Shown one piece after another: positions 2,090 through 58,686 of a stretch of DNA of 64,000 nucleotides. Below the pieces are notes generated by a model that saw only the letters and a program-made list of their open reading frames with translations, made no database searches and was not told where the DNA came from. The DNA is taken from positions 1,682,840 to 1,746,839 of the forward strand of contig RPFO01000231.1 of the NCBI GenBank assembly GCA_009746045.1, given 5' to 3'. The DNA comes from Mesostigma viride. Lineage: Eukaryota > Streptophyta > Mesostigmatophyceae > Mesostigmatales > Mesostigmataceae. The translations under genes were made by a program, and so were the position numbers. How positions within the stretch are numbered: the stretch's first letter is position 1; every line of letters starts with the position of its first letter.

Positions 2090-2185
2090 TCTGTCAGAAC
2101 ACGCAACCAGGGGGCAATACAGACCTAGGCTGCGGCGGTGCCCTACCCATCTGCGACCCCAGTGTCGTTGGAGGGCAGTGCGTGG
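2090..2185 (+). CDS. Cys-module exon A1
   Basis: This 96-base exon lies between acceptor ACCATGCAG and donor GTAAGT, in phase 1-1. It encodes a module beginning VCQNTQPGGNTDLGC and ending GGQCV, with cysteines at residues 2, 15, 22 and 31. It is the shortest of the 15 modules: the acidic N-D-G/S-D-G loop between the third and fourth cysteines is missing, leaving 8 residues instead of 14 to 16. The following 900-base intron separates it from B1. The family is not recognised with certainty. The spaced C...D.GC...P.C...C pattern recalls tandem cysteine repeats of large secreted or cell-surface proteins. This is the first complete module in the window; preceding exons, if any, lie to the left. 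Confidence 0.7.
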
Positions 2186-2337
2186 GTAAGTACTGCAGTG
2201 CAGGCACCTCCTCCCATCTACCATCGCACACCCATGCCTGCATTTACGTTACGATGTGAAGCCACGTCTGTTAATTTATTACTATGGTGCTAGCTGGTCA
2301 TATATGTACGAGCTTCTGCGCGCTCGGTTAGCAGCCA

Positions 2338-2739
2338 GTGCTCATTGATATGATGATTTTTAGGTTGTGGACGTGCATGACAGCCCACAAAACTGATTTC
2401 TACTTGGCCCACCCAGCGAAGCCTGTTATTCTTGCTGTTCCATTTTTTTGGTGCTTCACAAGTCCTAACATAGAATGCCCTTACACCCGTGGTCATATCT
2501 TGCAAATGCCTGATTATAAAGGGACTAAATATGTCGCACAAGATCCTTTGGAATGGGATTTATGGTGGCCAAGATCCCCCTTCTGTGTTGGCACCCAGGG
2601 TGGCTGTTGGTACATGTGCCGACCACTTGTGAAGGGAAAGCTCTACGTTGGTCTTCATGCCTTAACTACCAAAGAGTCGAGCTTCTTGTTGCACCAGTGC
2701 GATGTTACTATCACAGCTGTTGATAAGGTTATGAACTAA
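2338..2739 (+). CDS. Open frame in A1-B1 intron, partly conserved in the other units
   Basis: The 133-codon frame contains ECPYTRGHILQMPDYKGTKY and then a W-rich stretch (DPLEWDLWWPRSPFC). The same stretch is readable after A3 (about 39305-39460, TKYVAQDPLEWDSWWPGCPFC) but ends at a stop after A2 (about 16560-16650). Protein-like conservation between units 1 and 3 suggests either a once-coding exon or an old mobile element inside the duplicated intron. No GT/AG pair common to all three copies was found, and no function can be assigned. Confidence 0.25.
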   Translation: MLIDMMIFRLWTCMTAHKTDFYLAHPAKPVILAVPFFWCFTSPNIECPYTRGHILQMPDYKGTKYVAQDPLEWDLWWPRSPFCVGTQGGCWYMCRPLVKGKLYVGLHALTTKESSFLLHQCDVTITAVDKVMN

Positions 2740-3085
2740 TGGACGATACACATTTCATATGTACACGGACCAGTTGGTGAATGCTGCATGGGACAAGAGC
2801 ATATGGTGGCATGACAGTTGGTGGAAGATCTGCAGTACGGAAGTTGCAATCTTGAAATCATTTGGTCTCCTGAAGTGCGTAGGTCATCTTGCATCTATAG
2901 TGTGGTTCAATATCTGGGTACCACAGTCTGGTGTGTTGCGCATATTATATACTAAACACGCCACCCATGTCTGCATGCTTTGTTGGACGGTTGCTGACTT
3001 GAATACACTCTAAGGCAAGTGCTCCTGTTCACACTGATGTAATCACATTACGCCCACCTCATGCGCATCTTTTGGCTGACACCAG

Positions 3086-3205
3086 AGTGCCTGGATTCTT
3101 CAGGCCCTGAGCAGAGAGACGACGGCTGCAACACCCCTTCCATTCTAAAATACTGCGATGATGGCGTTAGCAATGATGCAGACGGATCAGCGGGTGTTTG
3201 CGTGG
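3086..3205 (+). CDS. Cys-module exon B1
   Basis: This 120-base phase 1-1 exon has acceptor GCTGACACCAG and donor GTACGT. Its module starts ECLDSSGPEQRDDGC and continues through ILKYCDDGVSNDADGSAG to VCV, with cysteines at residues 2, 15, 24 and 39. The upstream intron matches that of B2 and B3. The downstream intron instead matches the sequence after the broken B' copies at 23.7 and 49.2 kb. B1 is therefore a recombinant between the B and B' positions, or the state before B was duplicated. The acidic loop (DDGVSNDADGS) could bind calcium, but this is only suggested by composition. Confidence 0.75.
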
Positions 3206-4062
3206 GTACGTGCTTATGTACTTCTGTACCAGAAAGAGCTGCCAGGTACATTAAATAACGCACTCCATGTCCAGCCTATGAACCTATAGTATCTGCAGCC
3301 CTGGCTATTATCTTCAGTTAGCCCATGCAGGTGTCCTGCCCAAATTATGTCGTTATTGAAACTTGGCCGATGTTGTATGTAAAGAGAGATAGAATAAGCC
3401 CACCTGCTCTGTTTCAGGCCGGTAGATTAATCGACTGGGCAAGTTGTGATTATGCTGACAATGTCGCAATTTATGCGGCACAACTTAAAGTTAGTACTTG
3501 AAAAATTTTCAAGTATTTCAAAAGTTCTATAGAGTACCGAAGTTATAATAATCGTCACAAAACAACTTTGCGTGATGTAGGTGCCGTTTCCACTACAGTA
3601 CCCCGGTGACTTTGACCAGGGTTTTTCACCCCGTCCGGTGGTCAGATCTATACGTTCAGACAAACTTGTGTGCTATGGACAGAGTAAATGTAGAATTTTT
3701 CGTTGGTCTAGTTCATTCCCGCCAAAACCTTCCCGCCACATCCCTTACAGGGCGTGCACAAACTCGTGCCGATTTCCAGTCACGAGAAAAACTCGTGGTC
3801 GAAAATCATCACGAGGTCGGTTTATGTACAGGGGAGTCTCACTTCGGTGGGATGCATTTCAATCCATGCAGTGTACAAGAACAAGTGGGACAAACTCGGG
3901 AACGTGGAACGTTCCTCCGACGTGGTGAATTCGTGTTCCACCTCATCTTGTTTCGTTTAAGTGGCCAGCCGGAGCGGCTGCTTAGGTTTTAGCGGGCAAG
4001 TGTTCGAAGCGCGTCATTGGTGGATTACTGGGGAACTTGGGTTTCCCCGCGAAACTCCAACC
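3206..4062 (+). other. Start of the B1-C1 intron, no gene seen
   Basis: The first 100 bases match those after B'2 and B'3 (GTACCAGAAAGAG-type sequence). Further right, CACGAG...CTCGTG inverted repeats occur near 3781-3802. The overlapping frames at 3581-3992 show no conserved protein and are read as chance. Confidence 0.45.
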
Positions 4063-4563
4063 GCACGTTCAGATTTCCAAATCTCAAGTAAAGTTCGGTG
4101 GAGCTTTCTGAACGGGGGTAGTTGACGAGCAGCATTCCTCCGGACGAATAAATTGCGTTCCATACTTGCGAAAAATTTTGAAAGGTAGCTTGCGTGCAGC
4201 CCTACTAAAATTTGCGCGGACGTTCAGATTTCCAAATCTCAAGTAAAGTTCGACGAAAATTTCTGAACGGGGGTAGTCGGCGGGCAGCGTTCCTCCGGAT
4301 GAATGAAATGCATTCCATACTTGCGCAAGATTTCGAAAGGCAGCTTGCGTGCAGCCCTACTAAAATTTGCGCGAAGTGTGGGACTGAAAATTCGTAACGG
4401 AACCTTTTTGGTAGTTGCCGTCACTTTCTTTTGCGCCAGAGTGTGGGACTGAAAATTCGTAACGGAAACGTTTTGGTAGTTGCCGTCACTTCCTTTTGCG
4501 CAAAGTGTTGGACTGGAAATTCGTAACGGAAACTTCTTGGTAGTTGGCGTCACTTCCTTTCGT
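4063..4563. repeat. Compound tandem repeat: about 156 bp x2, then about 63 bp x3
   Basis: Two adjacent units (about 4063-4219 and 4220-4375) each run from CGTTCAGATTTCCAAATCTC to the CAGCCCTACTAAAATTTGCG end with few differences. They are followed by three shorter units (about 4375, 4439 and 4503 onward), each built on GGACTGAAAATTCGTAACGG and GGTAGTTGCCGTCACTT. They lie inside the B1-C1 intron and are absent at the equivalent place in units 2 and 3. Confidence 0.75.
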
Positions 4564-4756
4564 TCGACTGAAAATTCGCTGATATTCGCTGAATTCACAC
4601 CGTAGCCTAATTTTTAGTACCTCGAAGTGATGGAGCACCTAAAATTTTGCCCACAAGTACACTTGGCAGCGCGCTCACTGGGAAAAATTGTACAGCCGCT
4701 CCGGCGGGCCACTTGAACGAATTGTAATGTTGTTGAGTTGAGAAAAATGGCCCGTT

Positions 4757-5024
4757 GTCCCACCGAGGTGAGTTGGGGTGTTCCACCGACGTGAAATCGT
4801 CCCACCAGCGTCCCACGGAAGTGAGACTGCCCTTGTAATGGGGTGTTCCACCTATACCTCTAGTGAGTTAGGGAGAACTAGGTGTCCTACCGAGGTGAGT
4901 GTAGGACGTGTTTCACCTATGTAGGAGTGTTTGGGAAAATGGGGTATACCACCAAGGTGAGTTGGGGTGCTCCACCGACGTGAAATCGGCCCTCCAGTGT
5001 CCTGCGGAAGTGAGACTCCCCTGT
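4757..5024. repeat. Two-copy direct repeat with CCACCGAGGTGAGTTGGGG motif
   Basis: About 76 bases starting at 4757 (ACCGAGGTGAGTTGGGGTG, CCACCGACGTGAAATCG, GGAAGTGAGACT) recur at about 4948-5024. Shorter CACC.A.GTGAG motifs lie between them. The motif looks like a consensus 5' splice site, but its repetition points to a local minisatellite. Confidence 0.6.
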
Positions 5025-5771: not shown

Positions 5772-5917
5772 AGGTTAATATCGTGCGGCAGCCTTTTGCC
5801 ACTCGGCTTCTATTAAAGGTTCCGCACAAAATTTCCAGCGAGTGGTTATCACTGGTAATATTATGCAAAACCTTTAAGAAGCGGAATGGCAGAAGGTTGC
5901 CGCACAATATCAACTTT
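5772..5917. repeat. Palindromic MITE-like element with about 50-bp arms
   Basis: The left arm (TATCGTGCGGCAGCC... to ...CTTCTATTAAAGGTT) is inverted in the right arm (AACCTTTAAGAAGCGG... to ...GTTGCCGCACAATATCAAC), with a loop of about 45 bases. The 154-codon open frame covering it (5738-6202) follows from the hairpin and is not accepted as a gene. Confidence 0.65.
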
Positions 5918-12500: not shown

Positions 12501-12504
12501 GGGA

Positions 12505-13358: not shown

Positions 13359-13484
13359 CCTGTTTGGACTCATCATCGGCTGGTGGGGAAGACGACGGGT
13401 GCTATGGTGATGCTGGCACACCCTTCTGTCCGGATGGTTCTGCAAACGATGGGGACTACTCGCCCGGGGTCGGCCCATGTGCGG
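13359..13484 (+). CDS. Cys-module exon D1
   Basis: This 126-base phase 1-1 exon has acceptor CCTGAAATCAG and donor GTATGT. The module is CLDSSSAGGEDDGC, then GTPFCPDGSANDGDYSPG and GPCA, with cysteines at residues 2, 15, 24 and 41. D modules have the longest loop between the last two cysteines (16 residues). D1 differs from D2 and D3 by EDDGC in place of PDLGC. It is separated from E1 by an intron holding the R2 promoter and gag-like region. Confidence 0.78.
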
Positions 13485-14988: not shown

Positions 14989-15108
14989 CCTGTTTGGACA
15001 CAGCCCCCGGAGTTCTACCGGACGATGGTTGTGGTAATCCTTCTTATCCCGTCTGCGTCACTGGTGGTCCTAGTAATGGGGGCGGGACGGGGGGGGCCTC
15101 ATGCGAAG
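14989..15108 (+). CDS. Cys-module exon E1
   Basis: This 120-base phase 1-1 exon has acceptor CTGGAATCAG and donor GTGAGT. The module starts CLDTAPGVLPDDGC and ends GGTGGASCE, with cysteines at residues 2, 15, 23 and 39. Unlike E2 and E3, its loop has lost the acidic residues (PSNGGGTGG rather than PSDGD). If these modules bind metal ions, this one may not. Confidence 0.75.
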
Positions 15109-16137: not shown

Positions 16138-16254
16138 CAATGTGTGCGGACACGGAGACAGGGGGCGGTAAAGACCAGAGCTGCACCAATGCCTTTCCCA
16201 TCTGCAATGATGGAACAAATGACGGGTCCTTTGCCTTTAACGGTTTTTGCGTGG
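16138..16254 (+). CDS. Cys-module exon A2
   Basis: This 117-base phase 1-1 exon has acceptor CTGATGCAG and donor GTACGT. The module reads AMCADTETGGGKDQSC, then TNAFPICNDGTNDGS and GFCV, with cysteines at residues 3, 16, 23 and 38. One residue more than in other kinds precedes the first cysteine, as in A3, so the junction motif is C-x3-C. The D-x-G-C signature is changed to DQSC here, the only module where Gly before the second cysteine is replaced. The huge simple-sequence array follows in the next intron. Confidence 0.73.
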
Positions 16255-16830: not shown

Positions 16831-18867
16831 CCTCCCTCTCCCTCTCCCTCTCCCTCTCCCTCTCCCTCTCCCTCTCCCTCTCCCTCTCCCTCTCCTCTCC
16901 CTCTCCCTCTCCCTCTCCTCTCCCTCTCCCTCTCCTCTCCCTCTCCCTCTCCCTCTCCTCTCCCTCTCCCTCTCCCTCTCCCTCTCCTCTCCCTCTCCCT
17001 CTCCCTCTCCCTCTCCCTCTCCCTCTCCTCTCCCTCTCCCTCTCCCTCTCCCTCTCCCTCTCCCTCTCCCTCTCCCTCTCCCTCTCCCTCTCCCTCTCCT
17101 CTCCTCTCCCTCTCCCTCTCCTCTCCCTCTCCTCTCCCTCTCCCTCTCCCTCTCCCTCTCCTCTCCCTCTCCCTCTCCCTCTCCTCTCCCTCTCCCTCTC
17201 CCTCTCCCTCTCCCTCTCCCTCTCCCTCTCCCTCTCCCTCTCCCTCTCCCTCTCCCTCTCCTCTCCCTCTCCCTCTCCCTCTCCCTCTCCCTCTCCCTCT
17301 CCCTCTCCCTCTCCCTCTCCCTCTCCCTCTCCTCTCCCTCTCCCTCTCCCTCTCCCTCTCCCTCTCCCTCTCCCTCTCCCTCTCCCTCTCCCTCTCCCTC
17401 TCCCTCTCCCTCTCCCTCTCCCTCTCCCTCTCCCTCTCCCTCTCCCTCTCCCTCTCCCTCTCCTCTCCCTCTCCCTCTCCCTCTCCCTCTCCCTCTCCCT
17501 CTCCCTCTCCCTCTCCCTCTCCTCTCCCTCTCCCTCTCCCTCTCCCTCTCCCTCTCCCTCTCCCTCGCCCTCGCCCTCGCCCTCGCCTCTCGCCCTCGCC
17601 CTCGCCTCGCCCTCGCCCTCTCCCTCTCCCTCTCCCTCTCCCTCTCCCTCTCCCTCTCCCTCTCCCTCTCCCTCTCCCTCTCCCTCTCCCTCTCCCTCTC
17701 CCTCTCCCTCTCCTCTCCTCTCCCTCTCCCTCTCCCTCTCCCTCTCCCTCTCCCCTCTCCTCTCCCTCTCCCTCTCCCTCTCCCTCTCCCTCTCCCTCTC
17801 CCTCTCCCTCTCCCTCTCCCTCTCCCTCTCCTCTCCTCTCCCTCTCCCTCTCCCTCTCCCTCTCCCTCTCCCTCTCCCTCTCCCTCTCCCTCTCCCTCTC
17901 CCTCTCCCTCTCCCTCTCCCTCTCCCTCTCCTCTCCCTCTCCCTCTCCCTCTCCCTCTCTCCCTCTCCCTCTCCCTCTCCCTCTCCCTCTCCCTCTCCCT
18001 CTCCCTCTCCCTCTCCTCTCCCTCTCCCTCTCCCTCTCCCTCTCCCTCTCCCTCTCCTCTCCCTCTCCCTCTCCCTCTCCCTCTCCCTCTCCCTCTCCCT
18101 CTCCCTCTCCCTCTCCTCTCCCTCTCCCTCTCCCTCTCCTCTCCCTCGCCTCGCCCTCGCCCTCGCCCTCGCCTCGCCCTCGCTCGCCCTCGCCCTCGCC
18201 CTCGCCCTCGCCCTCGCCCTCGCCCTCGCCCTCGCCCTCGCCCTCTCCCTCTCCCTCTCCCTCTCCTCTCCTCTCCCTCTCCTCCCTCTCCCTCTCCCTC
18301 TCCCTCTCCCTCTCCCTCTCCCTCTCCCTCTCTCCCTCTCCCTCTCCCTCTCCCTCTCCCTCGCCCTCGCCCTCGCCCTCGCCCTCGCCCTCGCCCTCGC
18401 CCTCGCCCTCGCCTCGCCCTCTCCCTCTCCCTCTCCCTCTCCCTCTCCCTCTCCCTCTCCCTCTCCTCTCCCTCTCCCTCTCCCTCTCCCTCTCCCTCTC
18501 CCTCTCCCTCTCCCTCTCCCTCTCCCTCTCCCTCTCCCTCTCCCTCTCCCTCTCCCTCTCCCTCTCCCTCTCCCTCTCCCTCTCCCTCTCCCTCTCCCTC
18601 TCCCTCTCCCTCTCCCTCTCCCTCTCCCTCTCCCTCTCCCTCTCCCTCTCCCTCTCCCTCTCCCTCTCCCTCTCCCTCTCCCTCTCCCTCTCCCTCTCCC
18701 TCTCCCTCTCCCTCTCCCTCTCCCTCTCCCTCTCCCTCTCCCTCTCCCTCTCCCTCTCCCTCTCCCTCTCCCTCTCCCTCTCCCTCTCCCTCTCCCTCTC
18801 CCTCTCCCTCTCCCTCTCCCTCGCCCTCGCCCTCGCCCTCGCCCTCGCCCTCGCCCTCGCCCTCGCC

Positions 18868-18898
<31 letters not shown>

Positions 18899-19385
18899 CT
18901 CGCCCTCGCCCTCGCCCTCGCCTCTCCCTCTCCCTCTCCCTCTCCCTCTCCCTCTCCCTCTCCCTCTCCCTCTCCCTCTCCTCTCCCTCTCCCTCTCCCT
19001 CTCCCTCTCCCTCTCCCTCTCCCTCTCCCTCTCCCTCTCCCTCTCCCTCTCCCTCTCCCTCTCCCTCTCCCTCTCCCTCTCCCTCTCCCTCTCCCTCTCC
19101 CTCTCCCTCTCCCTCTCCCTCTCCCTCTCCCTCGCCCTCGCCCTCGCCCTCGCCCTCGCCCTCGCCCTCGCCCTCGCCCTCGCCCTCGCCCTCGCCCTCG
19201 CCCTCGCCCTCGCCCTCGCCCTCGCCCTCGCCCTCGCCCTCGCCCTCGCCCTCGCCCTCGCCCTCGCCCTCGCCCTCGCCCTCGCCCTCGCCCTCGCCCT
19301 CGCCCTCGCCCTCGCCCTCGCCCTCGCCCTCGCCCTCGCCCTCGCCCTCGCCCTCGCCCTCGCCCTCGCCCTCGCCCTCGCCCTC

Positions 19386-19416
<31 letters not shown>

Positions 19417-19874
19417 CTCGCCCTCGCCCTCGCCCTCGCCCTCGCCCTCGCCCTCGCCCTCGCCCTCGCCCTCGCCCTCGCCCTCGCCCTCGCCCTCGCC
19501 CTCGCCCTCGCCCTCGCCCTCGCCCTCGCCCTCGCCCTCGCCCTCGCCCTCGCCCTCGCCCTCGCCCTCGCCCTCGCCCTCGCCCTCGCCCTCGCCCTCG
19601 CCCTCGCCCTCCCCCTCGCCCTCCCCCTCCCCCGCGCCCGCGCCCGCGCCCCCGCTCTCGCCCTCGCCCTCGCCCTCGCCCTCGCCCTCGCCCTCGCCCT
19701 CGCCCTCGCCCTCGCCCTCGCCCTCGCCCTCGCCCTCGCCCTCGCCCTCGCCCTCGCCCTCGCCCTCGCCCTCGCCCTCGCCCTCGCCCTCGCCCTCGCC
19801 CTCGCCCTCGCCCTCGCCCTCGCCCTCGCCCTCGCCCTCGCCCTCGCCCTCGCCCTGGCCCTGGCCCTCGCCCT
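16831..19874. repeat. Giant (CCCTCT)n / (CCCTCG)n array
   Basis: About 3.0 kb is built of CCCTCT hexamers, interrupted by single CTCTCCTC slips and by blocks of CCCTCG (about 17563-17620, 18144-18243, 18360-18416, 18820-18922 and 19130-19860). The plus strand contains almost no A. The 1112- and 1187-codon minus-strand frames (EG, RE, RG and AR dipeptide repeats) arise only because the hexamer has no stop, and they are not called as genes. The pure pyrimidine part could form triplex DNA. Confidence 0.95.
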
Positions 19875-19901
19875 TGAGTTCCCGTCCCTTTCTGTCCTCA
19901 G

Positions 19902-20343
19902 ATCCATATCCATATCCATATCCATATCCATATCCATATCCATATCCATATCCATATCCATATCCATATCCATATCCATATCCATATCCATATCCATATC
20001 CATATCCATATCCATATCCATATCCATATCCATATCCATATCCATATCCATATCCATATCCATATCCATATCCATATCCATATCCATATCCATATCCATA
20101 TCCATATCCATATCCATATCCATATCCATATCCATATCGATATGTATCCATATCCATATCCATATCCATATCCATATCCATATCCATATCCATATCCATA
20201 TCCATATCCATATCCATATCCATATCCATATCCATATCCATATCCATATCCATATCCATATCCATATCCATATCCATATCCATATCCATATCCATATCCA
20301 TATCCATATCCATATCCATATCCATATCCATATCCATATCCAT
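19902..20343. repeat. (CCATAT)n array
   Basis: About 70 hexamers of CCATAT are interrupted once by CGATATGTATC near 20138 and degenerate at the right end (CATTTCCGTATTCATATCC). The array directly follows the CCCTCG array. A short relic of the same order is at 39914-39950. Confidence 0.95.
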
Positions 20344-20377
20344 TTCCGTATTCATATCCATGTGCACATCCACATCC

Positions 20378-22110: not shown

Positions 22111-22230
22111 CGTGCTTGGACTCGGCAGCCCCTGGGAACAGAGATGACGGCTGCAACCCCCCCTCCATTCTAAAATACTGCAATGATGGCGTCTCAAACG
22201 ATGGAGACGGATCATTTGGTGTTTGCGTGG
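22111..22230 (+). CDS. Cys-module exon B2
   Basis: This 120-base phase 1-1 exon has acceptor GCTTACACCAG and donor GTACGT. The module starts CLDSAAPGNRDDGC and contains ILKYCNDGVSNDGDGS before FGVCV. Cysteines are at residues 2, 15, 24 and 39, as in B1. Its flanks on both sides resemble B3 rather than B1. A second, broken B-like copy follows 1.4 kb downstream. Confidence 0.77.
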
Positions 22231-27686: not shown

Positions 27687-28540
27687 GAGCACCTTGAGGA
27701 TACGGGCGCCTGTTCCCTCCCCATGCCGCCAGCACGCCCTGACCCACAGCAGCCGCTGCCATTGGTGCACCCCTTTCTCTGCCTCTGGTTTCCTTAGACC
27801 CCACTCCATCTGAAAACGCCCTGCTTCCCTCGTGCATGCCGCTATGCGAAAGAAATCCCCGGTGGACACTATACCCGAGGGCAAAACTAGGGCTCCCTTC
27901 AGGAATCGTCACCTCGCTCTTTCCTTTCGCAGGGCTCTCCGCCAAAATCCACCGTCTCTAAAAAACCTCCTTCCCTCTTCCCTGACTTTCGAAACCAAAG
28001 TCACTACGGGCTCCTAACTGGAGCCCGGCCGGCGCACCCCAGCGCCATGATGGAACATCCCAGGACCAGCGCTACAGCCATTCACCAATATCTCAAAAAA
28101 CAGCAGGTCACCTCCCTGTAAATGGGGAGGCCAGCAGCGTTGACTTACATTGGGCGTAGCCGCCATAGTGGCCGCAAAGCGGCCCCCATGGGGGCCAGCC
28201 CACCTTTCCTCACGTCGGAACGTTGCAAGCTGCAAAAAGGCCTCCCGACCTTCACCACACCACTTAAAGTATGTGTGAAAATGAATAACAGAGCACATGG
28301 TCTCAAGGCGCCGCGCCCCCCTCAAAAGGGTGGGCACGGTTGACAGAAGGCACTATGTAGTACTGGCACAGCGCCGGTCCCCTTCTACTCTAGTCCTATG
28401 TAGCACAAGCACCTCACATGGCGCATGTGACGGACAGTAAAGCTACGCTACAGGCGGCAGATTGGCCCCCTTTGAGCCCGCTGCAACATGACTATAATAA
28501 CATGAGCAGGTAGCTCGGAAGTTGCGTCATTTATTCAGAC
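27541..28540. repeat. About 0.9-kb repeat, copy 1 (second at 35860-36790)
   Basis: The stretch from AAAGATATTTATTAAACGCG through CTCTGCCTCTGGTTTCC and GGGTCACCTCCCTGTAAATG-like sequence to GGCGGCAGATTGGCC occurs again in the next intron with moderate divergence. Both carry a minus-strand frame starting MAESPA.G and EVTIPEGSPSFAL (27457-27945 and 35927-36241). Copy 1 has a (CT)n run at 27653-27682 inside that frame. It is probably an unclassified mobile element. Confidence 0.55.
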
Positions 28541-28725
28541 GCAAAATTTGCATGGTGAAAAAATGCTGTCCGGGCCGAGGCCGCGTGACACCCAAAAATG
28601 ACAAAAGCAAACCCACCTAGCTAAGCTCGGCCGCTTTCCTTTTCACAAGGACAGCATGCAAGGGAAAGCGAACCTTTGCTTTAATGGAGCTTCACTGTCG
28701 AAGCCATTTCTGGCCCTGAGCAGCA
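28541..28725 (+). mobile_element. R1 retroelement 5' leader, copy a
   Basis: TGCGTCATTTATTCAGACGC, then GGCCGAGGCCGCGTGACAC and CAAACCCACCTAGCTAAG, also precede the gag-like frames at 45755-46033 and 60600-60824. It marks the left end of the R1 family. Confidence 0.5.
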
Positions 28726-29544
28726 ATGCCGAAGGGGCGCAAGGCAACAATAAGACAGGCAGCGCGCAAGGGCGGGACGCCCATGCCGCGTGCTGCAGCC
28801 AGTCACGCGCCAGTCGCCTTCAGCGCCGAAAAGAAGCAGCTCGCCGCTCTGCTCGCCAAGTGCACCAGCCCAGCAGAGGCTGTGGATGCAGTCGTGCTGG
28901 TCTTCGGTACCGAGGACTGGGTGACGGAGGCCAGCTCGTGGAGCTCAAGCCAGCCGAAGTCTGCTGTGCAGTTGCTGGCCGATCACGTCGAAGTTGCCGA
29001 TGTGTTGGACACACGCGATTCAAACGAAGCATTGGTGGCAAAACTGCTGGCTGTGACAGATCTCATGGCGGAGGACGAGGAGGCGCGGCCACCATCAACC
29101 CCTTCGCAACGAAAAATGACCAAGCCGCAAGGCAAGGCCGAAAATTCGGCAGCTGGGGGGGCTCTCAGAAAGGAAACGAGGGCGAGGTTGGCGACATTTG
29201 TTGGGGCACCTCCGGAAGCCGATAATCAGGATGACGAGGAGCTGGAGGAGGTGGGGACGCAACCCAGAAATTCATGAATGCGAGGTTTGAAGGCAGCGCT
29301 GGGAGGAATGGAGGGGGTGGGAAGCCAATTCAAGGCCTGGAAAAGGGTGCTGCTGCTGAGCCGAGCCAAGAGCGTGAAATATCGGATGTCAGACCGGGTG
29401 CTGCCGGCATGGTTAGAGGATGCCAGCGACAATTGGATGGGAATCTGGGAGGTAGTTGACACCAGCATGGGTCACGCGCTGGCCGAAACGGTGCTGAAAA
29501 CGCCACTAAAACTATCCTGGCCACGCACCCCCAGGATACTGTAG
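28726..29544 (+). pseudogene. R1 gag-like ORF, copy a (one stop)
   Basis: The frame runs from MPKGRKATIRQAARKG through FSAEKKQLAALLAKC, LLADHVEVADVL and an acidic linker to TQPRNS. A TGA (29275-29277) follows, and the same frame continues with MRGLKAALGGMEGVGS and DASDNWMGIWEV up to 29544. In copy b the corresponding position is read through without a stop, so the TGA is a mutation. The total is about 270 codons. By position this is the first ORF of a retrotransposon. No zinc knuckle is visible. The polymerase part is missing here. Confidence 0.6.
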
Positions 29545-30485: not shown

Positions 30486-30611
30486 CCTGTTTGGACTCAG
30501 CAGGGGGAGATACCCCAGACCTTGGCTGCACCAGTGATGCTGCCAAGCCCTTCTGTCCGGATGGTTCTGCAAGCGATGGGGACAACTCGCCCGGTGCCGG
30601 CCCATGCGCGG
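30486..30611 (+). CDS. Cys-module exon D2
   Basis: This 126-base phase 1-1 exon has acceptor CCTGAAATCAG and donor GTATGT. The module starts CLDSAGGDTPDLGC and continues TSDAAKPFCPDGSASDGD to GPCA. Cysteines are at residues 2, 15, 24 and 41. It is nearly identical to D3 over the first half and differs clearly from D1, so units 2 and 3 are the younger pair or have exchanged sequence. Confidence 0.8.
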
Positions 30612-37156: not shown

Positions 37157-37276
37157 TTTGTTTGGACTCAGCCCCCGGAAATTCAGCGGACCTCGGCTGT
37201 AATGATGTTGCTGCACCCGTCTGCGTTGATGGTGGTCCTAGTGATGGGGACTTCACGGGGGGGGCCTCATGCAAAG
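37157..37276 (+). CDS. Cys-module exon E2
   Basis: This 120-base phase 1-1 exon has acceptor CTGGAATCAG and donor GTTAGT. The module starts VCLDSAPGNSADLGC and continues NDVAAPVCVDGGPSDGDF to ASCK. Cysteines are at 2, 15, 23 and 39. The first two bases are TT instead of CC, so the split codon gives Val. This is the only module besides A1 where that residue is Val. Confidence 0.78.
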
Positions 37277-38899: not shown

Positions 38900-39016
38900 C
38901 ACCCTGTGTGGACTCGGCGACAGGGGCCAATAAAGACACTGGCTGCACCGATGCCTTTCCCATCTGCAACGATGGCACAAATGATGGAGTGGATGACACG
39001 AACGGTTATTGCGTGG
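38900..39016 (+). CDS. Cys-module exon A3
   Basis: This 117-base phase 1-1 exon has acceptor CTGATGCAG and donor GTACGT. The module starts APCVDSATGANKDTGC and continues TDAFPICNDGTNDGVDD to GYCV. Cysteines are at 3, 16, 23 and 38. It shares the TxAFPICNDGTNDG core with A2 but keeps D-T-G-C, the regular form of the signature. It lies between the two inverted repeat arms. Confidence 0.78.
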
Positions 39017-39568: not shown

Positions 39569-39950
39569 TCTCCCTCCCCCTCCCCATCCCCCTCCCCCTG
39601 CCCCTCCCCCCCCTCCCCCTCCCCCTCCCCCTCCCCCCCCCTCTCCCCTCCCCCTCCCCTCCCCCTCCCCCTCCCCCTCCCCTCCCCCTCCCCTCCCCCT
39701 CCCCCTCCCCTCCCCCTCCCCTCCCCTCCCCTCCCCCTCCCCTCCCCCTCCCCCTCCCCCTCCCCTCCCCCTCCCCCTCCCCCTCCCCCTCCCCCTCCCC
39801 CTCCCCTCCCCCTCCCCTCCCCTCCCCCTCCCCCCCCCCTCCCCCTCCCCTCCCCCCCTCCCCCTCCCCTCCCCTCCCCCTCCCCCTCCCCCCTCCTCCC
39901 TCTCCCTCTCCACGCCCATATCCATATGTATCCATATCCATATCCATGCA
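39569..39950. repeat. C-rich (CCCCT)n tract with short CCATAT end
   Basis: About 340 bases of CCCCTCCCCCTCCC-type sequence are followed by CTCTCCACGCCCATATCC and a few CCATAT units. It sits at the same place, with the same flank, as the 3.5-kb array of unit 2. Proline- and glycine-rich frames over it are by-products. Confidence 0.9.
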
Positions 39951-41204
39951 TAGAGTACGTGCATAGTACGTGACAGAGCTCTAGCTTTTACTTTACGCCT
40001 GGATCTACATGAATCGACTAGCACATGACCATGTTGAGATTATAAGAGTCGTATTAATATCCCATGATTCTCAAGCCGCCTTTTAGCGATCAGACTAACA
40101 CCTACATACATGTATGGGAGCATGGCAATGTGCCTGCATTGTGCATCAGTGCATACACATATGTGAACTTATGAACACACACGCTGATGAAGCGATCCTT
40201 GGTTCAGCATGTATATGACGATGACATGAGGAGAAAGAGATGAATTTTATTTGGGGGGCATGCCCTCAAGGTGCATAACCATGCCCGCTGCTTACATATA
40301 CAGTACTACACACATACCCAGTTCCCACAAGACCCCCCGTTATTCCAGAAATTGAAGAAGACAATTGCAACTAGGTCACAACGTAGATCATTTCAAGGGC
40401 TTTCTGTTGAGCCCACAACGAGTAAATTCTCAGTACTGAGCGGTTTGTAACGCAGCAAGTACGTTGCAAGCTCAGAAGAAGTATGTTACACGTATAAGTT
40501 TCTGAGCTGTCTGCTCATTTTATAGTTATGTTGCGGCAGCCGCTCAAAGTGGGCCGATCTGTAGCGTAGCTCTACCGTACGTCACCTACACTGTGTGAGG
40601 TGGTCGTGTTACATAGGACTCGAGCAGAAAGGGATCAGCGTTAGTTAGACTAGTGACGGAACCTTTTTGCCACCTGGCAATCAGGTTCGGCACTACTGTA
40701 TTTACCCGGCGATAACCACTCGCCGGTACACGCAAGTTAATGCTGCCATGGCTAGCAATCGTAGGTTTCCAAAATGCACTTCTTACTTGAAAAAAGACCG
40801 TTGCCCCTTGTGCATTGCCCCTTGTACTTGGACCGTACAGAACACCTCTCTAAGTTCGTCAGAAGTATGCTCACCCTGGTATTTATCATGCTGTGAGGAA
40901 AATGATAAATTTTTTATCTTTTAAAGCTAAAATTTTCCGAATTCTCAATAGTTTTTGTCAACAGTACAGTATAGTGGGTCAAACTGCTCCGATTGATTGG
41001 CTTATTCGGCTGGCCGATTCATTAAGGGACAAGGGATTGGTCGAGTTCCGCCTTCTTTGATGAATTTAGTGTGACAGTGCAGTACACAGGCTGATTGTCG
41101 TATGACAGTATGCACATTTTTCCAGGCCATGTGTCGTTTGTTTTCTGACCTAAGTTGGCGCTGCGCTTTCCGGTCCATGATACTGTGAGGACTTGGTGAG
41201 CTAT
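39951..41204. other. A3-B3 intron segment
   Basis: A half palindromic MITE lies at 40662-40745 (GGAACCTTTTTGCCACCTGG). A T-like end (CTGAGCTGTCTGCTCATTTT) lies near 40503. No gene is seen. Confidence 0.4.
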
Positions 41205-44230: not shown

Positions 44231-44347
44231 CGTGCTTGGACTCGAACGGCCCTGGGAACAGAGACGACGGCTGCAGCATCGCCTCCAAATACTGCTATAA
44301 TGGTTACAACGACAATGATGCAGACGGACAAGCGGGTTTTTGCGTGG
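44231..44347 (+). CDS. Cys-module exon B3
   Basis: This 117-base phase 1-1 exon has acceptor GCTTACACCAG and donor GTACGT. The module starts CLDSNGPGNRDDGC and continues SIASKYCYNGYNDNDADG to GFCV. Cysteines are at 2, 15, 22 and 38. Relative to B2 it has lost two codons between the second and third cysteines (PPSILKYC to IASKYC) and gained one in the loop. All changes are multiples of three, which supports selection for an open frame. Confidence 0.77.
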
Positions 44348-44435: not shown

Positions 44436-45325
44436 CGAGTGGGTTTTGGGGTTTTGGGGTTTCGGGGTTTTGGGGTTTCGGATGTGGGGTGGGGTGGGGG
44501 GGTCTGGGGTGGGGTGTGGGGTGTGGGGGTTGGGGGGTGGGGGGTGGGGGTGGGGGTGGGGGTGGGGGGTGGGGGTGGGGGGTGGGGGTGGGGGGTGGGG
44601 GTGGGGGTGGGGGTGGGGGGTGGGGGGTGGGGGTGGGGGTGGGGGGGGGGGGTGGGGGTGGGGTGGCGGGTGGGGGATGCGGGGTGGGGGTGGGGGGTGG
44701 GGGTGGGGGGTGGCGGGTGGGGGATGCGGGGTGGGGGTGGGGGTGGGGGTGGGGGGTGGGGGTGGGGTGGGGGTGGGGGGTGGGGGTGGGGGTGGGGGTG
44801 GGGGTGGGGGGTGGGGGGTGGGGGTGGGGGTGGGGGGGGGGGTGGGGTGGGGGTGGGGGGTGGGGGGTGGGGGTGGGGGTGGGGGGTGGGGGGTGGGGGG
44901 TGGGGGGTGGGGGTGGGGGTGGGGGGTGGGGGTGGGGTGGGGGGTGGGGGGTGGGGGTGGGGGGTGGGGGTGGGGGTGGGGGGTGGGGGTGGGGGTGGGG
45001 GTGGGGTGGGGGTGGGGGGTGGTGGGGGGGTGGGGTGTGGGGTGGGGGGGTGGGGGGGGGGTGGGGGGGGGGTGGGTGGGTGGTGGGTGGGTGTGGTGGT
45101 GGGTGGTGGGGTGTGGGGGCGGGGGGTGGGGGTGGGGGTGGGGGGTGGGGGGTGGGGGGTGGGGGTGAGGGTGGGGTGTGGGTGGGGGTGTGGGGTGAGG
45201 GGGTGGGGGTGAGGGGGTGGGGGTGAGGGGTGGGGGGTGGGGGGGAGGGTGTGGGTGTGGGGTGTGTGGGGGCGGGGGTGGTGGGGGTGAGGTGTGTGTG
45301 TGTGTGGGTGTGTGTGGGGGGGGGT
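44436..45325. repeat. G-rich (GGGGT)n tract starting with TTTTGGGG units
   Basis: About 890 bases are almost free of A and C on the plus strand. It starts GGGTTTTGGGGTTTTGGGG and passes into GGGGGTGGGG units, then GTGTGG near the end. Long Gly/Trp/Val frames on plus and Pro/His frames on minus are artefacts. It lies 90 bases after exon B3 and should form G-quadruplexes. Confidence 0.93.
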
Positions 45326-46033
45326 ATTATATATATTAATTGTGAAAGTGACCTCTAAAAAACTTACGAACGAAGCAAGTGAACAACGCAACAAAAAAGG
45401 AACTACAACCTAGATAGCAGGTAAAGCCCAGCCGCAACAATATATATAATAATTGTGGTTCTCTGACAGTTTCTTTATAGTGAGATGGAAGGGTAGCCGC
45501 TATAGCTAGGTTATAGGCTTCACTTGACATACCTTTTGAGGCCGGTGTGGCCTGATCCGGATCGGTAGTGACAAATGATTTGGCCAGTTCCCTGGCAAGG
45601 TGGCAGGAGCTACGTTGAGATGTAAACCTTCTTCTGTCTAGTGTTTTTTTTAATGACATAGTGATTAGCTAGATCTAGATTCTTTCTCTCACGCAATATG
45701 TATGTGACCTAATAACCCCGGAAAACTTACGAAAGCCGCCAGCAGTTAGAACGCCGATTTGCGTCATTTGTTCAGACGCAAGTTTTGCGTGGCGAAAAAA
45801 TGTCCGGGCCAAGGCCGCGTGACACGCAAAAAAGACAAAAGCAAACCCACCTAGCTAAGATTGGCCTCTTTTCTTTTCACAAGGGCGGCGACAGCAAGCC
45901 AGGGGAAACGCACCTCTGGTTGACAAACCTTCACTGTCGGAGCCATTTTCGGCCCTGAGCAGCAATTCCAAAGGGGCGCAAGGCTACAGCAAAGCAGGCA
46001 GCGGGCGAGGAGGACGGGACGCCCACACCGTGA
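45326..46033 (+). mobile_element. R1 5' region, copy b
   Basis: From about 45480 (TAGTGAGATGGAAGGGTAGC) to 46033 it matches 60300-60820, so the R1 family includes at least 550 bases before gag. GCGTCATTTGTTCAGACGC (hairpin GCGTC/GACGC) is at about 45761. The ATG of gag seen in copy a is changed to AATTCC here. Confidence 0.5.
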
Positions 46034-47006
46034 GCTGCTGCCGCCAGTCACGCGCCAGTTGCCTTCAGCGCCGAAAAGAAGCAGCTCGCCGCTCTGCTCG
46101 CCAAGTGCACCAGCCCTGCAGAGGCTGTGGGCGCAGTCGAGCAGGTCTTCGGTACCGAGGACTCGGTGACGGATGCCAGCTCGTGGAGCTCGAGCCAGCT
46201 GAGGTCTGTCGTGCAGTTGCTGGCCGATCACGTCGACGTTGCCAACGTGTTCGACGCACGTGACCCAAAAGAAGTGTTGGTGGCAAAACTGCTGGCCGTG
46301 GCAGATCTCATGGCGGAGGACGAGGAGGCGCTACCACCACCGACACCTGCGCAACGAAAATGGCCAAGCCGAAAGGCACGGCCGAAAATTCGGCAGGTGG
46401 GGGGGCCGTCGCAAAAGAAACGAGGGAGAGGTTGGCGACATTCGTTTGGGCACCTCTGGAAGCCAAAAATCAGGACGATGAGGAGGACGAGGGGGAGGTC
46501 GCAGCCGAGAAAATCATACAAGGTGTGAAGGCAGCACTGGGAGGAATGGAGGGGGTGGGAAGCCACCTCAAGGCCTCGAAAGGGGTGGGGCTGCCGAGCT
46601 GAGCCAAGAGCGTGAAATATTGGATTTCGGAGTGGGTGCTGCCGGGAGTGCTGAAGGACGCCAGCGACAATTGGATGGGAATCCGGCCATGGGTCATGAC
46701 AATCAAGCCTGGAAATTGGCGGAACATGGAGAACAGGAAAATTGTCATGAACATTTCACTGGCCATGGACACCCTTCTCAAGGAGCTGGGCTCAGCAGCC
46801 GGGGAGCTTGTGGGCATGGAGCACCTAATGAGGGTGGTGGCCGCCTTGCTGCAGGCGGAGGGGCAAGGAGGGGGGGGGGGAAGGCGGCGAGCCACCTCCT
46901 GCCATTCGGGGAGGCTGCACTTTCAGCCACCCCGGCGGTCAAGGCAGCCCTCCAAACTGCGATCCTCTTGGACAAGCTCAGCAAGGCCCAAGAAGTAGGA
47001 AAATAG
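46034..47006 (+). pseudogene. R1 gag-like ORF, copy b
   Basis: The frame begins ASHAPVAFSAEKKQLAALLA and runs through SSWSSSQLRSVVQLLADHVD. Near 46357 one A is missing from a run of five, which shifts it to the frame MAKPKGTAENSAGGG and EKIIQGVKAALGGMEGVGS, ending at 46602. It resumes at about 46612 (DASDNWMGI, LAMDTLLKELGSAAGEL). A 12-G run at about 46869 shifts it again to the C-terminal LLDKLSKAQEVGK. It is the longest gag of the family but is broken three times. Confidence 0.6.
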
Positions 47007-47343: not shown

Positions 47344-48777
47344 ATACGAACAACCGCTCACGGACGCGGTCAGTTTACCAAAAAGGAGGTGGCGGGGAAG
47401 GCACGGCTGCTCGGCCTGTTGGCTATGCCGCCGAGCTGGCGGGAGATATATGCCAGCAAGGAAAACTGCGTCAAGCCAGCGGTCGTGGCGAGCGCAAGGA
47501 ATTGGAATGTGCCTAAGCCCAGCCGGGGCTGCTCCATGGCTGAATGGGGAAAGCTCATGAGCGGGGCAGCAGATGTGGGCTTGGTAACGTTCCGGGAGAG
47601 GCGGCCCAAGTGGGTGGATGGCTGCTTTGGAGTTGCCAAGGGGGTGGGTGAGCTACGTTTCATCGTCAACAGGATGCTGGGCAACCTGCTGTGGGTGGAC
47701 CCCCCCAAGATCCTGCTCCCCCACCTGGGCATCCTCGTGGAGGTCTACATCAAGGGCTGGTGCTACAGCGCCAAGAGCGACCTCGTGTCATACTACTGCT
47801 CCATCGAGGTGCCCGAGTGGTGGTGGGACTACCAAGGCCTTCCTAGTGTGTGGTCTACTAGCGTGGGCCTGGCAGGGCCGAGGCGGAGGGTGTGGCCCGT
47901 GCTCAAGGTGCTGGCCATGGGGCATTCCCATGCGGTGCTGGGGGAGGCCATCCATGAGATGGTGCTCTACAGGAGCGGTGCTCTGGATCCGAGGCGCCAG
48001 GTCGACTACCTCGCAAGCGGAGGTGAGCTCACCTTGGTGAGCGACGAGTGTGGCCAGCCACTGAGCTTGGTCATGGAGTACAAGGAGGAGCTCGCTGTGG
48101 AGCTTCAGATCGCCCTGGAAAACCCCCCTGCCCCCATGCTGTCCATCACCATCGATGACATGGTGGCCAGCAACGAGCAGACCTGCGATGCGGTGAACCA
48201 GCTCATCACGCGCGCTATTGAGGAAGGCTGCCTTCCTAACAACCTTGTGCCGTCTAAGGAGAAGACTAAGATGACCAGCCTGGGAGGGGATGAGCTAGGA
48301 GCCGTGGGGGTGGTGCACCGACGGAACGGCGTGCTGGAACCAACGGTCAAGCAGCTCAACCTTGTGATCGCCCTCACACAGGCTGTACTCACTCGTGACC
48401 GAGCTACTGAGGGTTGGCTGCCATCTTGGGGCGGTGATTGTGGCTGCAGATGTTTAGTCAAAGCTGCCTCTCCATCTGGCGGTAATGTTTCAGATTCATC
48501 AGCCTGCAAGGGTGGGGGCAGCGATTGTGGGTGCTGTGGGCGGGGGTGCAGGAGGATTTGTGTCCTGGCCTTGGCTCCTATGCTAAGGGTTGACCGAAGG
48601 GCACCTTTGGCTGGTGAGGTTGTCGCTTCTGACGCGTTGACCTACGGGCAAGGTGTCGCCTACGCGACGATGGAGCCGGGCGATGTGACGGAGCTGGCGC
48701 GGGCACGCGAGGTTCGGGGGTACCTGACTTTGCTCATACCAACCGAGGTGGCCGACACTGGCCCCAGGCCGCTGAGC
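47344..48777 (+). CDS. R1 reverse transcriptase ORF
   Basis: The frame is open from 47344 and ends at 48942. No good ATG is seen, so translation as a fusion or by frameshift from gag is likely. In order it shows VAKGVGELRFIVNRMLGN, the finger-side KSDLVSYYCSIEVPEWW with the first catalytic Asp (47779), VLKVLAMGHSHAVLGEA like the L-P-M-G-x-S motif, and SITIDDMVAS (IDD at 48151-48159) for the Y-x-D-D box. CLPNNLVPSKEKTKM follows as in the thumb. The N-terminal 517-codon frame has no stop, the best preserved retroelement ORF in the window. It resembles DIRS-like polymerases. The YxDD tyrosine replaced by Thr-Ile is unusual. Confidence 0.6.
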
Positions 48778-49098
48778 GTGCGGGCGCAACAAGCAATCAC
48801 TAGCCAGCAATGGCATTGGGTTCAGGAGTCGTCGGCGGGATCCGGGGATGCACATCGACGAGAAGGAGGTGCAGGCTGCAGTGAAGGGCAAGCATGGAGA
48901 GGAGTTTGCGCAGCCTGGCAAACCGAGCCAAGCGGGTGGTGAGGTTGGTGGATCCCACTGCGGCATTTGGCTGCTTGGCTAAGGGGCGGTCATCCTCCTA
49001 CAAGCTCAACAAGCAGTGCCGCCGCTCGTGCGCACTGACCCTCGCCACTGGGAGTCGTTCCCAGTGGGTGTGGACGCCGAGTGCTCTTCAACCTGCCG
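48778..49098 (+). pseudogene. R1 RNase H region, copy b, truncated
   Basis: VRAQQAITSQQWHW opens it. A frameshift near 48830 leads to GMHIDEKEVQAAVKG (the Glu motif), a second one to RSLANRAKRVVRLVDPTAA and GCLAKGRSSSYKLNKQC, then SQWVW. Homology to the copy at 63334 stops near 49098, exactly where the broken exon B'3 begins. Confidence 0.55.
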
Positions 49099-49175
49099 AG
49101 ACGAAGGCTGAAACATCCCCTCCATTCTAAAATACTGCGATGATGAAGACGCCTTACCTGGTGTTTGCGTGGTTA
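49094..49175 (+). pseudogene. Broken B-type module B'3
   Basis: It reads CRDEG, stop (TGA where the cysteine codon TGC is expected), NIPSILKYCDDED, ALPGVCVV. It has the same 12-base loss in the acidic loop as B'2. The donor GTACGT is changed to GTTATG. The left half is replaced by the R1 RNase H end. Confidence 0.6.
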
Positions 49176-53690: not shown

Positions 53691-53816
53691 CCTGTTTGGA
53701 CTCAGCAGGGGGAGATACCCCAGACCTTGGCTGCACCAGTGATGCTACCAAGCCCTTCTGTCCGGATGGCGCTGCAAGCGATGGGGACTTCTTGCCCGGT
53801 GCCGGCCCATGCGCGG
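53691..53816 (+). CDS. Cys-module exon D3
   Basis: This 126-base phase 1-1 exon has acceptor CCTGAAATCAG and donor GTATGT. The module starts CLDSAGGDTPDLGC and continues TSDATKPFCPDGAASDGD to GPCA. Cysteines are at 2, 15, 24 and 41. It differs from D2 at only a handful of residues (Ala to Thr, Ser to Ala, Asn-Ser to Phe-Leu). Confidence 0.8.
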
Positions 53817-55350: not shown

Positions 55351-55416
55351 GCACTCGCACTGGACATGCTGAGACCATAGTCAGGCTGGCAGAAGCAGGG
55401 AAAGGGCAACTAGGCA

Positions 55417-56095
55417 GTGCTGGGCCAGGCTGCGCCGGACTACCTCGCCCAAAGTCTGGTCAACAGCTCTAGGACGTGGAAGGGGGCCGAGCTGCAGAAC
55501 CGGCTGGAGAAGGGGAAGGAGCTAAGGACAGGGAAGGACTATGTAGGGATCAGTGGGCGAGTGAGAGAATCGGGGGAATCTGGAAACAGGGTGGTGGGAC
55601 TGACCGGGACGTACCAGATCCGATTGCTGATTCAGGACTACGGTGCAGGGCACTCCCCATGTCACGGTGGGGCTAAACCAGAAGCTGGTTTTCGGCATCA
55701 AATCCTCAACACGACCCGCAGGTGGAGACAGTCGAACTGCCTGCAGAGGTCAGTACAACTCCAGTTCGGGATGCGCTACGGGAAGTCTGGGAAGTGTTCG
55801 TAGCTGTGAAATAGACAGCAGTCCCTGCTTCCGCTGCCGATCCCAGGTGACTTGGCACCACGGCGGTGGTGCGATCTTGGGTCCGCCCGGCGGTGTCTGT
55901 GGGCGGCGATGGCCCAGCACGGCCAGGCAGCCGTCTGTACGACGGCGCGCCAGGGCCCTGAACGGGCTAGGCAACTCTGTCTGAAACCCGTTTTCTATGC
56001 AGACCCAGGCGACAGGGCCGGTCCAGAGGGAGGCTTTGTGAACCTCGAGAAGGTCTGTCATGGTCAGCTGGTCATTCTTTGCAGCTTCCTGCTGT
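55417..56095 (+). pseudogene. R2 second gag-region ORF, copy c
   Basis: It starts MLGQAAPDYLAQSLVNSSR and includes GAELQNRLEKGKELRTGKDY. Beyond about 55640 two other frames look protein-like (GTPHVTVGLNQKLVFGI and VETVELPAEVSTTPVRDAL), so at least two shifts exist. It matches 32200-32815. Confidence 0.4.
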
Positions 56096-56289
56096 AGCGG
56101 CAGCCAGCCCGGCGACAGACATTGATGGGTTACAACGCCCTTGGTCCATTCACAACGTTACAAGCAGAACACACAACCATGCGCGCGCCTGGGGAGGAAA
56201 GATGGGTGGGTGGATGTGCTGAACCTCCTGCCCTCGTCTATAGCCGCCATATATGCGCACGTGGAGAAGATGGTGGGCTTGTTATCCCC

Positions 56290-57110
56290 GGCAGAGGAGC
56301 GGGGTCGGTTCGGGCGATGCGGCGGTGCTCCCTGCCTGAGTATGCCAGGGTGGTGCTGCGGACCCTAGAGGTGGGGTTGGTCGGGGGCTTCTACAAGCAG
56401 GCACCAGTGGCCCAGAATGGCGCGGCAGGGAGAAAGAGCCGGATGGGTCCCAGCACGTTATCGTCGACAACAGCCCTGGCATTAGTCTGCGGGTCATCCC
56501 CATGATCACCTTCCTTCGACACCTCTGGGTTATGGATGAGCTCTGGGTGCGCATGGGGCAGACAGTCTTTGGGGGTACCTCGGACCTGGTGGGCTACTAC
56601 AACTATCTGCAACCTCCCGAGTGGATGCACGCGCGGCTCCCATTGTGGCTGCGTGACGTCAGCCTAGCGGGGCCCCGGTGAATGGTGTGGCCAAGGATGC
56701 TCTGCTGACCCATGAGTAACACGCCGCTTTCTTGGCACAGGTTACGCACATGGGCGTGCTGTATCGCTCTGGGGCGCTTGACCCACGACGGCACATCCAT
56801 CTAGACATGCCCCGAATCATGCTTGTCGCCGATGCAGACCCACTGAGGCGTTCTGGAGCGCTGCGCTGGGGAGCCAGGACTTCACCCACCCTCTCCCCCC
56901 AGCCGCCGTCTTTGACCCACCACCGAATGGGGATCCCACCTCCTTACAGGGGGAGCGAGATGGATCCGACCTGCGTCCGCCGGGAAACCGTAGCAGCCAC
57001 ATGGGGGCGGCGGTGGAGCCTTGGCAGCATGCAGTGGCGGGGGCCATGGGAGAGAACTGAACCGAAGTGCATCCCTGCTATCAAGGTTTGAGACATGGGC
57101 TTGGTGGCCA
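56290..57110 (+). pseudogene. R2 reverse transcriptase remnant
   Basis: Pieces in changing frames line up with the R1 polymerase: VGLVGGFYKQAPVAQNGA, HVIVDNSPGISLRVIPMI, SDLVGYYNYLQPPEWM with the first catalytic Asp (about 56601), LRDVSLAGPR and then a stop, and GVLYRSGALDPRRHI (R1 has VLYRSGALDPRRQ). The Y-x-D-D part was not found. The frame ends near 57060 with NGDPTSLQGERDGSDLRPPG. Confidence 0.5.
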
Positions 57111-57311
57111 AGTCGAAGGGAATGTGGCACAAATCATGCGTTGGCATATATGTGCTGGATGGGCCCCTGCATGGTGTTACAACCACCGGCCTGATAATGA
57201 TTTGTACAGAGACTTCGAATGGTGTGGTATAGGCTCTAAAGCCTAGCACACTTAGTTCAATGCCAAATGTTTCTGTTGGTGGGAAGGAAGTCCAATGGTC
57301 CAAATTCTAGG

Positions 57312-57790
57312 AATATATTTTTTGAGCTTTGCTCATTTTATATGTGATATGCAGACGGGCTGAAAGGGGACCGACCTGCCGTAGATAGCGTGCTACTAGC
57401 GCCTGTCACGTGGGCACTGCACCTGCCGGGACTTCTGATGGCAGTACCGGGGCTGGACCCGTGGTGCAGGGCTTGGCAGCTTCTGTATGTCACTAGACCA
57501 TGGACCAGCACCTAGGCGTGGTGCAAGTGTATGGACAGTCAGCACTTCAAGTGGTGTAGGGAACGTAGGGATACCTCTTTTCAGTCCACCCACCCACCCA
57601 CCCGCCCGCCCGCCGCCCGCCCGCCTGCCCGCCCGCCCGCCCGCCCGCCCGCGCCCGCCCACCCACCCACCCACCCACCCATGCTGCTTAGAGGAACTGA
57701 CGTCTTGGGAGGTATGTGTTGTTACAACAGCCAGCCTGATGATGATTGGTACGAGAACTACTTAAGTGGTGTGGTATAGGCTGCACTTAA
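57312..57790 (+). mobile_element. Dispersed repeat T, copy 5, with CCCG/CCCA tract
   Basis: TGAGCTTTGCTCATTTTATA and GGACCGACCTGCCGTAGATA are on the left. The tetranucleotide tract is at about 57585-57681. On its right is CCYNSQPDDDWYENY, and left of the element (57160) is WCYNHRPDNDLYRDFEWCG. This is the same arrangement as in copy 3. Confidence 0.55.
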
Positions 57791-58566
57791 TAAAGCCTAG
57801 CACTGTCACTTAACTGGGCCCGATTATCATCAGGTACAAATGCGACAATTGGATAGGCACGGGTCCTTCGTACTGGAATCACTGGGCCAGATATGTGATA
57901 CATGAACGACGCTCCGGCTACAACATCTTCTGGGTTCTAGTCGTGTGGTGACCGTGAGCAGCAAGTGTTCTCTATGATCAGAATCCCACCACCAGTATGA
58001 AGTCATATAGTTCTTAATGCATGCCTGCATGGCAGTATAGCTTGATGCGAGGCCGGGTTGTTCCCATGCTTCTCAAGAGCCTCTTCGCAGCATGACCTGC
58101 GCTCCCGTGTACAGTGCACCTCTTGCGCTGGTCCTTGCAGCAGGTATGCAGAACTGTCTTCACTGAGCAGCAGTGACTGGTGTTGGCTTCTTCACATGAA
58201 CACCATATCACGTCATATAGCCTCTTTCTGCATGGTGGACACAACTGTGCGTGTTTCAGCTGCACGTTTGCCACGTTCTACAAGGGCCAGGAAAAATAGT
58301 TTCAACACCAAAGCTTATGGAGCAAATGTTCCGAGGGCATCATATGCAGTGGCGGGATGGGCTTTACGTAGTGCATAGCTCAGGAAGCACTCGCTAAACC
58401 TACGCGTGGGTCATCTTGCTGATGTTGTAGGCCACCTATCCTCCCCATGACTGCCTTGTGGTGGTACTACCTTGTGACATTCCTTCTGCTGCTGCATGCT
58501 CCTGCACACGCACACTGACTTGATATATATACTTCATGTGTGACGTTTGTGTTTGCCTGGAATCAG

Positions 58567-58686
58567 CCTGTTTGGACTCAGCTTCCGGAATTACAGCGGA
58601 CCTCGGCTGTAGTGATCCTGCTGCACCCATCTGCGATGATGATGGCGTTAGTAACGGGGACTACGGGGCGGGCGCCTCATGCATCG
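58567..58686 (+). CDS. Cys-module exon E3
   Basis: This 120-base phase 1-1 exon has acceptor CTGGAATCAG and donor GTATGT. The module starts ACLDSASGITADLGC and continues SDPAAPICDDDGVSNGDY to ASCI. Cysteines are at 2, 15, 23 and 39. Its loop DDDGVSNGD resembles B modules more than E1 or E2. No A-type exon follows within the remaining 5.3 kb, so either the array ends here or the next unit lies beyond the window. Confidence 0.77.

Follow-up and report, generated by a model that had tools for sequence, protein, structure and literature searches.

Tandem copies of a five-exon cysteine module set in a large Mesostigma viride gene that probably encodes a secreted protein

Introduction

How do fifteen short, cysteine-rich exons come to stand in the same order three times over about 57 kb of an algal genome, and what kind of gene, if any, do they belong to? 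The stretch that raises this question (the window: 64,000 nucleotides of contig RPFO01000231.1, GenBank assembly GCA_009746045.1) comes from Mesostigma viride, presented in passages of PMC6947507 and PMC10762512 as a scaly biflagellate streptophyte alga. We consider it quite likely that the window holds some 57 kb of a single gene, Mv16018, cut at both ends, that a five-exon block was copied within it, and that its product is a secreted protein built of modules.

A gene behind the exons

The first-pass annotation of this DNA, made from its letters, proposed five exon types (A to E) repeated in three units. We located all fifteen exons, each on the forward strand: A1 (2090..2185, the shortest module), B1 (3086..3205), C1 (7811..7927), D1 (13359..13484), and E1 (14989..15108) in unit 1; A2 (16138..16254), B2 (22111..22230), C2 (26038..26154), D2 (30486..30611), and E2 (37157..37276) in unit 2; and A3 (38900..39016), B3 (44231..44347), C3 (51264..51380), D3 (53691..53816), and E3 (58567..58686) in unit 3. 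Thirteen starts stand as originally placed, and the two that had to be adjusted, those of A2 and A3, now give exons of 117 bases each. As proposed, lengths run from 96 to 126 bases, always in multiples of three, and all fifteen exons are phase 1-1; each is preceded by AG, followed by GTnnGT, and open. The introns between them measure 900-6916 bases, in keeping with the 0.9 to 6.9 kb given before.

Exons A1 to E2 (10 of the 15), joined at their predicted splice sites, reproduce residues 34-425 of the annotated Mesostigma viride protein Mv16018 (P0005 in our protein set; EukProt jgi/Mesvir1/13884/Mv16018-RA.3, 1138 residues) letter for letter, across nine junctions. A1 is the first module of this protein and E2 the last exon that it takes from the window; its A2 includes an extra Met, three bases more than in the nearest reading. 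This identity marks the window as Mesostigma viride and means that the predicted exons agree with a gene model made independently. According to a passage of PMC7027972, strain CCAC 1140 was annotated with MAKER, with assembled transcripts as evidence; from the model names we infer that the Mv gene models derive from this annotation.

The window and Mv16018 have A1-E2 in common, as well as the module order afterwards; they differ in that Mv16018 lacks unit 3 and adds nine modules, a hydrophobic N-terminus (a hydrophobic stretch at residue 8), and C-terminal domains. The nine modules outside the window follow E2 as A, C, D, and E, a unit without B, and then as a complete A-B-C-D-E. Residues 1-33 and 786-1138 have no convincing counterpart in the window. 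Provided that all of these modules belong to one gene, the locus holds at least 24 of them in five units, and we estimate a gene of around 100 kb or more and a protein of roughly 1140-1340 residues. The hydrophobic N-terminus, the identity over A1-E2, the module order, and a C-terminus of extracellular type (discussed below) support the earlier proposal of a modular extracellular protein grown by unit copying.

Every exon encodes one module of about 30-41 residues with four cysteines, and a C-x-x-C or C-x-x-x-C link joins neighbors. The cysteine pattern first described was confirmed: C-x12-C is kept in 15/15 modules, six to eight residues separate the second and third cysteines and 8-16 the third and fourth, and D-x-G-C occurs in 14/15, with DQSC in A2. 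EGF-like repeats have six cysteines per module; given four in 15/15 modules, and with Pfam finding nothing at E 1 in unit 1 or in a single D module, we ruled out EGF-like modules.

Might these be exon-like non-coding repeats, arisen by chance or left as relics of mobile elements? The introns do contain many repeats and probable mobile-element remains. The identity to an annotated protein, the 15/15 open frames, and the fixed cysteines nevertheless make this explanation highly improbable, and for units 1 and 2 it is refuted unless the annotation itself is wrong. A profile built from the fifteen modules recovers these fifteen (E 7e-9 or better) from 2457 six-frame pieces of the window. Random 118-base window stretches are open in a given frame in 29% of cases; when random mutations were introduced into each exon at 15% or 20%, all fifteen were open in 0/2000 trials, and at 10% in 7/2000, with exons taken as independent and the present-day exons as the starting point. 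The sole extra profile match below E 0.1, on the minus strand at 62144-62200 (E 0.009), is by eye no module.

In 11/15 acceptors, CTNA occurs no more than about 10 bases from the AG, which is near for a putative branch site; the acceptor copies are related, so few independent cases stand behind this count.

Copying of a five-exon block

Comparison of the window with itself reveals collinear intron blocks between units, 69-93% identical by block, with insertions between them, which agrees with the earlier description of diverged, repeat-filled introns around exons that stayed open. The nearest neighbor of a module bears the same letter for 23 of 24 modules (the 15 of the window and the nine further ones of Mv16018; A1 is the exception), and the copied unit is therefore a block, not a single exon. 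Of the duplicated 20-kb unit that had been proposed, the duplication stands and the fixed size does not, as the A-to-A distances are 14.0 kb and 22.8 kb. The closest unit varies by letter (A3 with A5, C2 with C4, D3 with D4), a pattern in the sequences that suggests later exchange between units.

Unequal crossing over between long homologous introns would be the simplest route to copies of the five-exon block, in at least five units. Gain or omission of whole blocks leaves the frame intact, since all module exons are phase 1-1. Tandem phase 1-1 exon modules are familiar from animal mosaic proteins; here, in a single-celled alga from near the base of the plant lineage, what was copied is a set of five distinct exons together with their introns. 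The locus is, in our opinion, a tractable case for asking how the copying of blocks and the drift of loops mold a secreted protein.

The remaining surprise, besides the five-exon copying unit, is the missing unit 3. Mv16018 contains none of A3-E3: after E2 it continues in register with a further A module, and no module of the protein is identical to one of unit 3. The cause may lie in splicing or in a gap of the annotation, or else alleles, strains, or assemblies may differ in copy number. One tentative explanation, which we find somewhat doubtful, is that unit 3 is either a silent block passed over in splicing or missing from the allele or strain behind Mv16018, whereas units 1 and 2 and those outside the window are used. 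The in-register jump past all five exons fits, as does a G-rich array of 0.8 kb (44486-45287) beside exon B3, which begins 139 bases past the B3 donor and might influence the splicing of unit 3. However, all five exons of unit 3 are open, their splice dinucleotides are intact, and their 20 cysteines are present; moreover, annotation pipelines can lose exons across introns of 5-7 kb.

Selection on the modules

With all aligned codons, the ratio of nonsynonymous to synonymous substitution rates (dN/dS) is 0.96 for units 1-2, 0.97 for units 1-3, and 1.15 for units 2-3, and every 95% range includes 1; these unit pairs, given in the same order throughout, are not independent of each other. The dN/dS below 1 anticipated between units did not materialize, and third codon positions differ least among the codon positions. 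All 60 cysteines are kept, with 1, 1, and 0 differing codons among 20 cysteine cells. Without the four cysteines, dN/dS becomes 1.08 (95% range 0.73-1.66), 1.12 (0.75-1.67), and 1.19 (0.73-1.94), not different from 1; without the D and G of D-x-G-C as well, it is 1.37, 1.31, and 1.36, with ranges that include 1; and without eight conserved columns it is 1.48 (1.01-2.36), 1.45 (0.98-2.27), and 1.42 (0.89-2.49). Amino acids differ in 63/146, 81/145, and 55/151 loop cells versus 2, 1, and 1 of 40 scaffold cells, a contrast that is inflated, as the eight scaffold columns were selected for agreement in at least 14/15 modules of the same data.

The adjoining introns provide another yardstick. Exons carry 132/579, 162/576, and 110/597 substitutions (0.228, 0.281, and 0.184) versus 108/703, 122/701, and 64/709 (0.154, 0.174, and 0.090) in the intron just upstream, and by letter the exon is the more substituted in 3, 4, and 4 of 5 cases. 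This comparison takes in all five exons and the nearest stretch of up to 147 bases, with nothing dropped, and it counts substitutions only, gap columns being commoner in the intron stretch (52, 41, and 37) than in the exons (18, 21, and 3). Against pooled flanks, exons give p values of 0.13, 1.5e-5, and 0.003, the contrast being weaker for units 1-2; segments were dropped there if they had no more than 60 aligned bases, at least 33% mismatches, or at least 80 gap columns, and exon A was thereby lost for units 1-2 and 1-3.

The loops thus evolve roughly at the neutral rate or a little above it, and positive selection is possible. We lean slightly toward the view that they are unconstrained filler between the cysteines, in which case a dN/dS near 1 means neutrality and no diversification. 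The values obtained with the cysteines left out, whose ranges span 1, are what this predicts; the higher substitution of exons than of the upstream intron in all three pairs speaks against it, as do the ratios of 1.42 to 1.48 with eight columns omitted, even if the choice of columns pushes these up.

A bolder idea is that of a self-expanding, frame-safe diversity locus. Alleles or transcripts would differ by whole five-exon periods, through gain, loss, or skipping, as the absence of unit 3 from Mv16018 hints, and the loops on their fixed cysteine scaffold would diversify under selection. We think this unlikely; if true, a unicellular relative of land plants that branched off early would have a surface protein that varies and serves in recognition or adhesion.

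Relatives and the C-terminal region

We ran three homolog searches, each scoring up to 8000 candidates of restricted length, so that the returns are no census. The module-based search advocated by the first-pass annotation worked in one form: the fifteen joined modules returned three proteins, all from Mesostigma viride. With a short profile made from the three units, none of 8000 candidates scored at E 0.1. A profile from the three proteins returned 18, namely 17 from Mesostigma and one from the myxobacterium Hyalangium versicolor. The two productive searches together yielded 19 Mesostigma relatives (P0001-P0019). The module is present in 15 of them (at least two stretches above 3 bits with the window profile) and was not found in P0014, P0015, P0016, and P0019. 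Pfam scans of eight proteins identified leucine-rich repeats (LRR) in P0004, P0009, and P0014, a C-type lectin domain in P0013, and RTX repeats in P0015; precomputed Pfam annotation adds LRR in P0008 and P0011 and RTX in P0016 and P0019.

What all 19 have in common is DPHF. In Mv16018 it belongs to a C-terminal part, outside the window, with a putatively SEA-like region and a "DPH/root cap" region with a modeled VWD fold. The S-DPHF motif and a modeled beta-sandwich ally this region with the DPH/root cap proteins of streptophytes (PF06830); the difference would be the array of four-cysteine modules that precedes it. Among ten Mesostigma proteins, PF06830 (cut-off 27 bits) scores above the cut-off in P0007 (27.2) and P0014 (29.4), equals it as printed in P0015, stays below it in P0001, P0002, P0003, and P0009 (15.8-24.7 bits), and gives no match at E 0.01 in P0004, Mv16018, and P0013. 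Residues 930-1124 of Mv16018 also have a predicted fold resembling the VWD domains of gel-forming mucins and VWF, at 9-16% sequence identity among the matches listed. Pfam VWD finds nothing in Mv16018, and the nearest among the scanned relatives is P0003 (21.9 bits versus a cut-off of 22.9).

R-[HKR]-L-L-Q occurs upstream of DPHF in 19/19 relatives, and R-x-L-L-like motifs are present near the N-terminus of several LRR relatives.

The earlier remark that no described family was known for this exact arrangement needs qualification. It holds for the module, which has no match in Pfam or NCBIfam within the scans made; the gene itself is already publicly annotated, and the family to which its C-terminus belongs (DPH, root cap, BIP2-like) has been described, a BIP2-like multigene family of Mesostigma having been reported in 2006, as related in passages of PMC1781420 and PMC10796529. 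The locus unites modules unmatched in those two databases with the streptophyte DPH/root cap family.

A look-alike of the module beyond Mesostigma

The Hyalangium versicolor protein (P0020) has nine module stretches and reaches 118 bits against a profile from the window modules alone. It resembles them in its tandem C-x-D-S/T, D-x-G-C, x6-C, and C-x-x-C links, and differs in a shorter spacing of the third and fourth cysteines, an uninterrupted bacterial frame, and an unrelated C-terminus (Big_5). A scan of genome contigs with two short peptide patterns confirmed 12 loci, mostly myxobacterial by title; nine (L001-L009) show at least two stretches above 5 bits with the window profile at the pattern match, L011 and L012 one stretch each outside it, and L010 none. 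The bacterial look-alike may reflect common descent or convergence.

Other searches came back empty within their scope: Pfam gave nothing above cut-off for unit 1, for a single D module, or for three frames from mobile elements; NCBIfam gave three Mesostigma proteins no match and P0020 sub-threshold ones only; PDB sequence searches gave two irrelevant matches (E 2.6 and 2.9) in one case and none in another; viral contigs 29 pattern matches with no relative among them; and a BFVD fold search nothing at E 0.001. Judged by titles and the beginnings of abstracts, we recognized no paper on this module array in open-licence PubMed Central.

Proposed function

We propose that the product is secreted, that its acidic modules may form a disulfide-linked, possibly calcium-binding rod, and that the SEA-/VWD-like C-terminus would assemble this rod or hold it in or on an extracellular coat. 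With the cysteines fixed around them, the loops may be free to change and could serve as spacer or binding surface. Since scales cover Mesostigma cells, a role in coat or adhesion would be a natural one.

Several points weigh against reading the locus as such a gene. Ratios of dN/dS near 1 would equally be expected of weakly constrained sequence. Pfam detects no domain in Mv16018 at E 0.01. Five of the 15 exons, the whole of unit 3, are without independent support, and the junctions are predictions from sequence and a gene model. Finally, the modules are poorly modeled (mean predicted local distance difference test score, pLDDT, of 51 for a single module; below 50 for Mv16018 residues 25-428), which makes the rod and its calcium binding guesses.

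Intron repeats

Repeated elements of 80-84% identity lie in the introns and beyond E3, one set at 28522-29448, 45455-46686, and 60295-61451 and another at 48424-49099 and 62964-63657; these are probably mobile elements. A stop-free frame of 532 residues without a Pfam match spans 47344-48942. Hexamer-type arrays stand beside homologous sequence in the A-B introns, extending over about 3.5 kb in unit 2 (16832-20377) and 0.4 kb in unit 3 (39572-39952).
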